Shown: positions 6,698-17,946 of the stretch, piece by piece
Layout: each line of letters opens with the position of its first letter
Position numbering within the stretch: the stretch's first letter is position 1
NCBI RefSeq assembly: GCF_000336775.1
Contig: NZ_AOLJ01000011.1
Location: forward strand, 150,267 to 214,266
Direction: 5' to 3'
Length of the DNA: 64,000 bases
Source of the DNA: Haloferax gibbonsii ATCC 33959
Lineage (GTDB): Archaea > Halobacteriota > Halobacteria > Halobacteriales > Haloferacaceae
Notes under the pieces: model-generated
The model's database searches: none
What the model was told of the DNA's origin: nothing
Seen by the model: only the letters and a program-made list of their open reading frames with translations
Position numbers and translations under genes: made by a program

Positions 6698-7348
6698 TTA
6701 TTGTGGGGGTCGCTCGTCGCGAATTCGCTCTGCGAGCGTTCGATAGGCGCGTTTGAGGCGGGCCGCGACCGCCTGCCGCGAGATTCCGAGCTCCGTACCG
6801 AGCTCGTCGAGTGACGTGTCCCGTCGCTCGTCGAAGTAGCCGCGGTCGAGCGCGAGGAGCAGGGCTTCGACTTGCGTGTCGGTCAGCCCCTCGCTCGCCG
6901 GCGCTTCCTCGGCCGCGACGGACGTGATGCGGTCGAACTCGGCGTCGATGCCGTGGGCCGCCCACTCGCGTCTGAGGTCGGTCAGCACGCGGTGCGAGGA
7001 GACGCGGAGCTTGAGCCACCACGAGTCATCGGTCGAGAGACATTCTAAGAGAACCGCGTCTCTGGACACTAACGCGTCGAAAATCGGAGCCTGAGAGACG
7101 TCCCACGAGACGCCGTAGAGCGCCCGGTCCGAGACGGATTCGACGAGCGTGAGGTCGTCGACGCTCGGAAGCGACCGCGCCGACTCTCCGAACGCCCCCG
7201 CGTCGGGACCGCGGACCCAGACGAACGACGCCGCCTGCGAGGCGGTCGGGACGGACCGTTCCAGCTCCAGTTCGACGTCGTGTTCCTCGGCCGCGGGACC
7301 GAACGGGAGCGCGGACAGCGGGGCGACGACCTCGACGATGAGGCACAC
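6698..7348 (-). CDS. Bat/HTH_10-type transcriptional regulator
   Basis: A DNA-binding regulator of the bacterio-opsin activator class. The N-terminal about 150 residues match the GAF/HTH-associated domain of this class (conserved WWLKLRVSSHRVLTDLRREW). The C-terminal about 60 residues are the HTH_10 domain: LTDTQVEALLLALDRGYFDE, then SLDELGTELGISRQAVAARLKRA. I chose the GTG at 7348 (MCLIVEVVAPL), giving 216 residues; a TTG 27 nt upstream is also possible. A T-rich TATA-like stretch at about 7374-7379 lies at leaderless distance. The effector and targets are unknown. Confidence 0.82.
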   Translation of the reverse strand: MCLIVEVVAPLSALPFGPAAEEHDVELELERSVPTASQAASFVWVRGPDAGAFGESARSLPSVDDLTLVESVSDRALYGVSWDVSQAPIFDALVSRDAVLLECLSTDDSWWLKLRVSSHRVLTDLRREWAAHGIDAEFDRITSVAAEEAPASEGLTDTQVEALLLALDRGYFDERRDTSLDELGTELGISRQAVAARLKRAYRTLAERIRDERPPQ

Positions 7349-15054: not shown

Positions 15055-15213
15055 ATGCCCGCGACCCTCGAAGTCAAGTGCGCCAACGAGGACTGCGAAC
15101 TCGACATGTTCGAGCTGCACTACACCTACGACATGCCCGACGACGTGACGGTGGCGGACTTCTCCTGTCCGTACTGCGGCGAGTCCCGCTTCCTGGAGGA
15201 GATTCAGCTATGA
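15055..15213 (+). CDS. Small zinc-ribbon protein (52 aa)
   Basis: A 52-residue protein with two cysteine pairs, KCANEDCELD and FSCPYCGES, giving a treble-clef or ribbon zinc site. It overlaps the downstream Hsp20-like gene by 4 nt (ATGA), so the two are translationally coupled and probably act together. An upstream TTTATGAGCG near 15026 lies about 27 nt before the ATG and can serve as TATA box. It matches a conserved haloarchaeal family of unknown function. Confidence 0.8.
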   Translation: MPATLEVKCANEDCELDMFELHYTYDMPDDVTVADFSCPYCGESRFLEEIQL

Positions 15214-15752: not shown

Positions 15753-16901
15753 TCATTCCCCGTCGAGCGTCATCCCTTCGACCACCGCGAACTCCTCGTC
15801 GCCGTCGAAGCGCCGAGGGTCGAACGCGTCCGGTATCGACGCCCGACCGTCGCCGAGCACCGCCTCGGCGAGTCGCTCACCGATTGCCGGCGACCACATG
15901 AAGCCGTGGCCGTGCCAGCCGGCGGCGACGTAGACGCCGTCGGCGACCGCGCCGACGAGCGGGTTCCGGTCGGGGGTCGCCCCGCAGAGGCCGGCCCACG
16001 CGCGGTCGAGTTCGAGTTCTGACCCCCCCGCGTCGCCGACCGTCGCCCGGTGCCGAACCGCGTCGAGCGCGTCGGCGACGAACCAGTCGTCCGCGGTCGG
16101 GTCCCAGTCGTCGGGGTCGGGCTCGACCGGTTCGACGCCGTCGCCGGCGAGGACGCCGCCGGGGTGCGGCCGAAGGTACGACTCGTCGGTCGCGTCGTAG
16201 ACGGTCGGTCCGCGGTAGTCGCAGTCAGCGACGAGCGCCTGCGCCCGGTACGGCTTGAGCGCGATGGGGTGGCCGGCGTCGGCCAGCAGGCGGCGCGAGT
16301 GGACGCCGGCCGCGACGACGACGGCGTCGAAGCGGGCGGTCACCACGTCGTCGACGGCGACGCCCGGCGGGTCGGTTCGGAGCGACACCGCGTCGCCGAC
16401 GCGGAACTCGACGCCCGCGGACTCGCACTTCTCGACGAACAGGTCCGCGTAGGCCGCCGGGTCGGCCCAGCCGGCGTTCTCGGCGACGCCCGCGAGGAGC
16501 ACGTCGTCGGTCCGAATCGGGAACCGGTCGGCCAGTTCGTCGGCTCCGACGAGCGACACCGCGCGGTCGTGGACCCGCATTCGCTCGACCGACTCTTCGA
16601 GGGCCGCGGCCGCCGCGTCGTCGCCCTCGCGCGCGAGAAAGACGTAGGGCGTCTCGTGGAAGGTGAACCCGCCCTCGCCCGAGAGGCTCCGAAACCGGGC
16701 CATCGCGCGGTCGGCGACGGCCACGTCGATGTCCTCCGCGTAGGCGTCGTAGCAGATGCCGGCGGCGCGGCCCGTCGACCCGCCGCCGGGCGCGTCGCGT
16801 TCGAACAGCGTGACTCGCGCGCCGCGCTCGGCGAGGTCGAAGGCGGTCGTCAGGCCGACCGCGCCCGCGCCGACGACGGCGACGCGCGCCGATTCGTTCA
16901 T
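15753..16901 (-). CDS. FAD-dependent amino acid/amine oxidoreductase (DAO family)
   Basis: A 382-residue flavoenzyme of the glycine oxidase/D-amino-acid dehydrogenase family. The FAD dinucleotide-binding motif VVGAGAVGLTTAFDLAERGARVTLFE is at residues 8-33. Further signs are GGGSTGRAAGICYDAY, a VVVAAGVHSRRLL segment, and a C-terminal GVYVAAGWHGHGFMWSPAIGE that contacts the flavin. The substrate cannot be told apart among glycine, sarcosine, proline or D-amino acids. The start MNESARVAVVG is unambiguous. The 262-bp region upstream contains a possible structured RNA. Confidence 0.85.
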   Translation of the reverse strand: MNESARVAVVGAGAVGLTTAFDLAERGARVTLFERDAPGGGSTGRAAGICYDAYAEDIDVAVADRAMARFRSLSGEGGFTFHETPYVFLAREGDDAAAAALEESVERMRVHDRAVSLVGADELADRFPIRTDDVLLAGVAENAGWADPAAYADLFVEKCESAGVEFRVGDAVSLRTDPPGVAVDDVVTARFDAVVVAAGVHSRRLLADAGHPIALKPYRAQALVADCDYRGPTVYDATDESYLRPHPGGVLAGDGVEPVEPDPDDWDPTADDWFVADALDAVRHRATVGDAGGSELELDRAWAGLCGATPDRNPLVGAVADGVYVAAGWHGHGFMWSPAIGERLAEAVLGDGRASIPDAFDPRRFDGDEEFAVVEGMTLDGE

Positions 16902-16994
16902 ACCCCGTCTGCGTCGGCGAGCGACTTGAATGGCCGCCGCTCGCGGTCGTAACGTCGGTCGAGACCCGCGCGGCGCGGTCGCTCAGGATGTGTA

Positions 16995-17110
16995 GAGAGA
17001 CGGGGTAGGTCGGCCGGCCGTGGCCCGCGTGGAAACCACGTGGGTCCGAAAGGAGCCACCCGACCGTGCCGTCACCTGTCCTCTCCGGCGGCCGCGTAAA
17101 AGGCCTCCGG
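16995..17110 (+). ncRNA. Candidate structured RNA (three-way junction plus hairpin)
   Basis: Within a 262-bp gap the plus strand can form nested helices with no mismatches. GGTCGG 17008-17013 pairs with CCGACC 17060-17065, and GTGGC 17020-17024 pairs with GCCAC 17055-17059. They enclose a hairpin 17025-17032/17036-17043 and a second hairpin TCC-GAAA-GGA (17045-17054). Outer pairings are ACGG 17000-17003 with CCGT 17069-17072 and GAGAG 16995-16999 with CTCTC 17081-17085. A further hairpin CCGGcGGCC/GGCCtCCGG spans 17085-17110. The GAAA tetraloop favours this strand. No clear promoter is seen, and it resembles no RNA I know. Confidence 0.35.
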
Positions 17111-17163
17111 TGCTCGGTGCAGGGACGGGACGAGCGCGGGCGACCGGCTGGCGGCGCGCCGGA

Positions 17164-17946
17164 CTACTCGGCGAACTCGTCGACGCCGCGGGCCGGGTAG
17201 CCGACCACGAGGTCGATGCCGGCGTCGCGGAGGTCGTCGATTCGCCGGCGCACGTCGGCCACGGAGCCGATGAGCGCGTAGTCGCGCGAGGCCTTCAGGA
17301 GCACCTCGCGGGCGCGGCCCTCGGCCGAGGCGTCGGTCGCGGCGTCGTCGGGGAGCGCGCGAGCGACGGGGCGACGGCGAGAGACGTACGCGCCGACGGC
17401 GTCGAGAATCTCGTCGTCGTCGTCGGTGAGGGCGGTCGGGGCGTAGACCGCGATTTCGCCGTCGAAGCCGGCGGCCCGGAGCGCCCGAACGTCCCTACGG
17501 GTCGACCGCGAGAGGAGTTCGTACTGGGTGCCGCCGGCGGCGAGGGCGATTCGTTCGATGCCCTCGGTGCCGACCCACGCGTCGGGCGCGCGCTCTCTCG
17601 CGGCGCGGAGACGGGGCGCGACCGCACGGCGCGCCTCGTCGTCGGTCAGATACGCGCCGTGGCCGGCCACGAGCACCTGCCGAATCCCGTCGGGGAGCCA
17701 CTCGTACAGCGAGTCGTCGCCGAGCGGGTCGAAGCCGTCGGCGCGGACCGGCGTGGTCAGTCGAATCTCTTTTTCGGCCGCGAGTTCGCGAAGCACGTCC
17801 TCGTCGGGGAGTCGCTCGCGGCCCTCGTAGTCGATAGCCACGATGTCGAGCGGGACCGACAGCGCCTCGCGCACGTCGCACTCGGCGGGCTTGAGTGCGA
17901 CAGCGTCCAGACCGGCTTTCGAGACCGCACGCTCGGCGGTCAACAT
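17164..17946 (-). CDS. Conserved haloarchaeal TIM-barrel-like protein (luciferase-like)
   Basis: A 260-residue soluble protein with alternating strands and helices that suggest a TIM barrel: VPLDIVAIDYEGRERLPD, IRQVLVAGHGAYLTDDEARRAV, WVGTEGIERIALAAGGTQ, and a final YALIGSVADVRRRIDDLRDAGIDLVVGYP. This last segment closely resembles the C-terminal end of F420-dependent luciferase-like monooxygenases, where it closes the cofactor site. The family appears restricted to haloarchaea and its reaction is unknown. The start ATG is at 17946. Confidence 0.7.
   Translation of the reverse strand: MLTAERAVSKAGLDAVALKPAECDVREALSVPLDIVAIDYEGRERLPDEDVLRELAAEKEIRLTTPVRADGFDPLGDDSLYEWLPDGIRQVLVAGHGAYLTDDEARRAVAPRLRAARERAPDAWVGTEGIERIALAAGGTQYELLSRSTRRDVRALRAAGFDGEIAVYAPTALTDDDDEILDAVGAYVSRRRPVARALPDDAATDASAEGRAREVLLKASRDYALIGSVADVRRRIDDLRDAGIDLVVGYPARGVDEFAE

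Follow-up and report, generated by a model that had tools for sequence, protein, structure and literature searches.

Positions 16995-17110 of the window (the whole stretch of 64,000 nucleotides from Haloferax gibbonsii ATCC 33959 that was analysed) are flanked by two ORFs, at 15753-16901 and 17164-17946, both on the minus strand as the original prediction had described; the former, named by eye, is FAD-dependent oxidase-like. No tRNA was found in the 64-kb window. Between these ORFs lies a putative small RNA gene (Table 1), with a 5' end at about 17073 and a 3' end, still uncertain, at 16970 or up to about 40 nt beyond. The extent proposed initially, 16995-17110, overlaps the RNA, but the 3' part reaches to about 16970 and falls outside that range, and 17095-17110, then counted as part of the RNA, carries a promoter-like element instead. 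A coding reading was rejected because core lengths (96-108 nt among 74 sequences) vary out of frame, leaving all three remainders modulo 3; each frame was stop-free in 36-45 of the 74, which by itself decides nothing on coding.

Table 1. Features of the putative RNA gene, in window positions
Feature	Position	Strand	Remarks
Promoter-like CCGGAGG-NN-TTTT	17095-17110	-	TTTT about 28 nt upstream of the RNA start; BRE/TATA position
RNA gene core	16970-17073	-	104 nt; matched by models R1 and R2 in its own genome; core conserved in 74 aligned sequences
P1, 5' strand GACGG	17069-17073	-	Pairs with 16999-17003; P1 99.7% paired, 3 of 5 pairs invariant
Internal loop 1, 5' side CAC	17066-17068	-	Near-invariant; positions 5-7 identical in 72-73 of 73
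P2, 5' strand GGUCGG	17060-17065	-	Pairs with 17008-17013; covariation
P3, 5' strand UGGC	17055-17058	-	Pairs with 17015-17018; covariation
Internal loop 2, CCUUUC	17048-17053	-	Conserved, unpaired in the model; 73 of 74 sequences
P4, apical hairpin CCCACGUGG-UUU-CCACGCGGG	17024-17044	-	9 of 10 pairs changed on both sides; 90.9% of cells paired
P3, 3' strand	17015-17018	-	Pair counts on A4
P2, 3' strand CCGACC	17008-17013	-	Pair counts on A4
Internal loop 1, 3' side UACC	17004-17007	-	UA conserved, following two positions variable
P1, 3' strand CCGUC	16999-17003	-	Pair counts on A4
3' conserved box GAGCGACCGC	16975-16984	-	GAGCGRYNGC in most aligned sequences

Relatives were collected in two steps. 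A blastn search of 59 related genomes with positions 16940-17165 yielded matches in 29 of them (E<=0.01); the core was held by 22 genomes, that of H. gibbonsii included, at 23 loci, and the other seven displayed short matches only. Twenty of these 23 loci (L004, L006 and L008 were dropped as near-duplicates) composed alignment A2 and the covariance model R1. A second model, R2, was built on 74 sequences (alignment A4) and used with a cut-off of E<=0.001. These were 74 of 80 loci, six (L103, L104, L106, L110, L111 and L112) having been dropped for low scores before pairs were counted. The loci fetched and aligned represent only part of the genomes matched by R1.

Hairpin structure and reading strand

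Both alignments supported the same fold, one long hairpin interrupted by two internal loops. In A4, which was fitted to the structure (itself drawn from the same sequences), 94.5% of cells were paired and 17 of 25 pairs had changed on both sides, in 132 cells; none of 500 shuffles reached any of five measures, and slid controls were 28-49% paired. In A2, a MAFFT alignment of 20 loci from which the structure had been drawn but which was not itself fitted to it, 93.6% of cells were paired and both-side changes affected 8 of 25 pairs (26 cells). RNAalifold on A2 also drew a single hairpin, identical except that P4 was shorter. The compensatory changes that the original prediction had proposed to look for in relatives are thus present in both alignments. 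Covariation was carried by P2-P3 and P4. P1 hardly varies and three of its pairs never do, so that its support is one of compatibility and not of covariation. Conservation beyond pairing was observed in P1, the CAC side of internal loop 1, CCUUUC and the GAGCG box.

Taken alone, the stretch 16995-17110 folded at -65.7 kcal/mol on the plus strand (z -3.83, 0 of 200 shuffles as good) and at -60.4 kcal/mol on the minus strand (z -2.38, 3 of 200). Since this is better than shuffles on both strands, the fold exceeds chance at this GC content, as had been claimed from the letters; the pairings drawn at that time, GTGGC/GCCAC and GGTCGG/CCGACC, also occur at the coordinates given for them. The shape built from them fared differently, and a structured RNA at the site was supported while the strand and the drawing were not. 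The two-hairpin three-way junction with a GAAA (GNRA) loop was absent from single-sequence folds and from alignment folds. A different and weak junction appeared in one of six alignment folds (plus strand, 16970-17100), where four outer pairs, partly broken, enclosed a 3-pair hairpin together with the main hairpin. On the plus strand, the CC-GAAA-GG mini-hairpin could be formed, as YY-GAAA-GG, in 66 of 74 sequences; its minus-strand counterpart, a CC-UUUC-GG hairpin, was formable in 11 of 74 only.

A G-U pair on one strand is an A-C mismatch on the other. Read from the minus strand, P1-P3 displayed 74 G-U versus 2 A-C cells over the 74 sequences, and P4 displayed 65 versus 19. Folding energies favour the plus strand or neither one: RNAalifold values were lower for the plus strand at all three extents (plus/minus -54.2/-50.8, -46.7/-43.5 and -55.2/-53.6), the single-sequence z was better on that strand (-3.83 versus -2.38), and single folds made the minus-strand RNA the more stable one in 36 of 74 sequences. 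Wobble pairs were given more weight than energies, as they show directly which mispairs have been tolerated. A plus-strand RNA was rejected, against the energies, on these wobble pairs and on the direction of the promoter-like element. The latter, which lies upstream and agrees independently with the wobble pairs, leads us to infer that reading proceeds on the minus strand, from a start near 17073 to 16970. The oxidase gene is on that same strand, contrary to the antisense orientation, one of the two suggested at first.

Promoter-like element, neighbouring genes and distribution

An archaeal BRE/TATA pair belongs at the upstream distance at which CCGGAGG-NN-TTTT was encountered. This motif had a single match in the genome of H. 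gibbonsii and none in a reversed control. It was conserved at near-constant distance in most of 73 sequences (L108 was dropped besides the six excluded from A4), with a T at -27 in 69 of the 73. The predicted RNA gene would thus possess its own promoter at archaeal TATA distance, as expected of a stand-alone small RNA gene. A pattern combining the promoter with the 5' end matched in 122 of 391 genomes; many of these matches were plainly due to chance, the reversed control matched as well, and examination by eye revealed no new convincing member of the RNA in the 391 genomes. As a separate observation, the region upstream of rRNA in genome G010 (L206) has GACGGCCTTTTATG, which resembles GGAGGCCTTTTACG of window positions 17095-17110; this likeness hints at a promoter of the stable-RNA type.

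Neighbouring ORFs, viewed by eye, differed among loci, also within the genus. Clustering them over 152 loci (some genomes twice, low-scoring loci included, ORFs called by a crude acidic-composition rule) gave no cluster present in more than 15 loci among the 14 largest listed. The nearest downstream ORF was on the strand of the RNA in 63 of 142 loci and on the opposite strand in 79, and a fixed same-strand downstream gene, as looked for in an mRNA leader or riboswitch, was not found across loci. These data bear on the suggestion that the RNA is a riboswitch-like 5' leader of the FAD-dependent oxidase gene. The two are indeed on the same strand in the window, with 68 nt between the 3' boundary of the RNA and the oxidase start; yet other loci, even in the genus, have other neighbours, and the 63 of 142 count speaks against it as well, so that such a leader is highly improbable and the initial proposal was abandoned. 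The RNA is, as predicted from these comparisons, a stand-alone gene and not a leader. The nearest upstream ORF was on the strand of the RNA in 103 of 146 loci (on the other strand in 43), for which reason read-through from upstream genes is possible in many loci. In six loci (e.g. L188), the RNA was preceded at 72-88 nt by an ORF that was named fibrillarin-like by eye.

Within the class, R1 matched 127 of 391 genomes and 35 of 86 genera (two of the 127 rest on weak matches), and R2 matched 125 of 391 genomes and 34 of 86 genera. All 15 genomes of the genus carried the RNA according to the covariance models. R2 gave a single match in 121 of 125 genomes and two or three in 4. Scores were at least 50 bits, except for two diverged copies (41-43) and four weak R1 matches (25-31). 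Presence was patchy across the class, two thirds of the genomes having no match, which speaks against a core housekeeping RNP; an individual absence is no proof, because only ten candidates were scored per genome under strict filters. Outside the class, the RNA pattern was scanned alone, without the covariance model: the 72 stretches found in a named genome collection all bore haloarchaeal names (some organisms twice), and phages displayed no match to the RNA. One IMG/VR match was recorded, at 7153-7221 of a 71-kb contig from the viral collection (L243, IMGVR_UViG_2974630626_000001). Matches also occurred on three haloarchaeal plasmid records. For 24 of the 74 sequences the closest relative belonged to a different family, with cross-family identity of up to 92% (L066 from family f1 versus L074 from family f4). 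An accessory regulator that would sometimes have been transferred agrees with both the patchy presence and the similarity across families.

Some relatives differed from the common organization. Thirteen of the 74 sequences, which belong to several families, carried a 20-nt motif, ACCGAACCGAGAGCGTCAGG, 9-15 nt past the core (at least 15 of 20 letters; L066, L069, L074, L076 and nine others). At 16 or more letters there were 10 real occurrences versus none in a control region, for a motif picked after inspection of the same sequences; at that level the window did not have it. In species that carry the motif, the RNA may be longer. Two diverged copies (L103:1585-1690 and L104:1549-1654) retained the promoter-like element, GACGGCACGG, CCTACCCCGTC, each of the P1 strands and the GAGCG box around a different central hairpin (GCGTGCATTTGACACGC). 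These copies suggest that the upper hairpin may be exchangeable.

Candidate functions and relation to known RNAs

The view that the RNA belongs to no known family was borne out by Rfam 15, which gave no gathering match in the window; with lax filters and E<=5, positions 16850-17250 returned only mir-9191 at 17180-17239 (E 1.7), outside the RNA. Two known classes were nevertheless compared with it. Like archaeal H/ACA sRNAs, it is a hairpin with an internal loop about 11 bp below a second one and an A-rich box in its tail. Internal loop 1 would be the pocket of such a pseudouridylation guide, P2 and P3 together are about 11 pairs long and the A-rich box lies 14-17 nt past P2; H/ACA hairpins have such stem lengths and box spacings. 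However, the consensus pocket in UN geometry found 0 targets in the 16S and 23S rRNAs of three genomes, a test that is weak because shuffled means were 0.07-0.12. ANA was inconstant, occurring 13-17 nt past P2 in 56 of 73 sequences (ACA within nt 13-20 in 42 of 73), and no conserved GA pair that would make a K-turn was recognized in the alignments by eye. For H. volcanii, passages of PMC2584109 report two hairpins, HP1 and HP2, as H/ACA candidates. With neither a pocket target in these rRNAs nor a constant ANA box, the guide was rejected, and we hold its chances to be very slight.

The second class was that of Ro60-bound Y RNAs, which share with the RNA described here a hairpin of about 100 nt, a base of constant sequence and an internal loop rich in pyrimidines. 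They differ in that TROVE (Ro60-like) proteins do not co-occur with it: among 391 haloarchaeal genomes searched, 43 encoded such proteins (e.g. L239-L242), 8 of these 43 also carried the RNA (counted by hand against R2) where about 14 were expected by chance, and none of the 15 genomes of the genus had TROVE. This assignment was rejected as well.

Our preferred reading, which we consider rather probable, is that of an independent minus-strand gene for a small RNA, so far seen in haloarchaea only, whose product would act in trans as an RNP. The RNA would be transcribed from about 17073. Its P1/internal-loop-1 end, whose sequence is constant beyond pairing needs, would form with the tail a site for a sequence-specific protein or for a large RNP such as the ribosome; contact with the target would fall to CCUUUC, as an exposed loop, and to the apical hairpin, which varies. 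The RNP step is drawn from conservation, no partner protein or target having been found.

The same exposed loop is open to another reading, in which the RNA would be a base-pairing regulator that binds mRNAs through CCUUUC or the tail without a dedicated protein, like trans-acting bacterial sRNAs. CCUUUC is indeed unpaired in the model and occurs in 73 of 74 sequences, and excerpts of PMC3956466 report phenotypes for deletions of H. volcanii intergenic sRNAs. Yet the most constant part is the paired P1 end with internal loop 1 and not an exposed seed, and most of those H. volcanii sRNAs lack conservation (22 of 27 species-confined, according to the same excerpts). We regard this regulator as unlikely, with some chance left to it.

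A ribosome-associated RNA was also considered, one that would pair with 16S rRNA or have a seat on the ribosome, where it would tune translation or 30S assembly; binding would then depend on CGGCACGG. Exact complements of 9-12 nt were found against one 16S rRNA, CGGCACGGU facing position ~249 in 65 of 80 RNAs and CCUACCCCG facing ~620 in 58 of 80. Complementarity to 16S was beyond shuffles in one genome (G010, none of 400 shuffled RNAs scoring as high), borderline in a second (G289, 0.045 of shuffles) and at chance in a third (G016, 0.28), and complementarity to 23S gave no match in G010 and chance level in G016 and G289. Moreover, it was the self-complementary apical hairpin that gave the 12-nt match behind the G010 score, variants such as CCUAAACC and CCUACACC have lost the ~620 complement (judged from the RNA side), and both complementary segments are mostly paired within the RNA fold. 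On the other side, sRNA_61, a chromosomal H. volcanii RNA of 111 nt, displays high ribosome occupancy and encodes no detected protein in the portion of PMC12482152 consulted. A role at the ribosome seems doubtful on balance.

A broader version of the preferred trans-acting RNP would make it the founding case of a haloarchaea-only RNP, with a constant platform (the unique promoter, P1/internal loop 1 and the 3' GAGCG box) bearing an exchangeable upper hairpin. It would have spread between families partly by transfer and on plasmids, and its site of action would be the ribosome or some other large machine; we put it forward as a speculation with a small chance of being right.

No description of the locus was found in the literature searched, subscription papers and supplements being outside that scope. 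An FtsZ1-like gene (named by eye) lies about 43 kb from the RNA, at the right end of the window, and from the gene numbers around FtsZ1 we take the locus to correspond to the vicinity of HVO_0764/0765 in H. volcanii. A small Cys-rich ORF at 15055-15213 agrees with HVO_0767, listed as a C(P)XCG protein in PMC11241148. Through this mapping we infer that the locus is absent from the 27 H. volcanii sRNA mutants, as they appear in the available part of PMC3956466. The three most conserved RNAs from that source (H225.2R, hts10 and htsf359) resemble ours in being intergenic and present in 12-19 other haloarchaeal genomes; on the H. volcanii chromosome they lie elsewhere, at 1.60, 2.08 and 2.39 Mb. 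The family may nonetheless have been met before as a transcript. STRG.2577.4, an intergenic H. volcanii RNA of 111 nt, is very highly expressed according to an extract of PMC5892119, and the similar length alone of this RNA and of sRNA_61 is only a lead to their identity with the one described here. Excerpts of PMC7002113 mention 22 intergenic RNAs (itsRNAs) from a halite community that, like ours, occur in several Halobacteria and have no function assigned. The RNA may be among these itsRNAs or the H/ACA hairpins of PMC2584109, as far as the cited portions go.

Most studied H. volcanii intergenic sRNAs are species-confined (22 of 27 in the part of PMC3956466 referred to), whereas roughly one in three genomes sampled from the class has the present RNA. 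The covariance model can be used for annotating other genomes. With its strong covariation and a putative promoter of its own, the gene presents a clear target for genetics in the tractable model Haloferax. Should the RNA act as an RNP, the search for its protein partner would lead to a new archaeal RNA-binding system.
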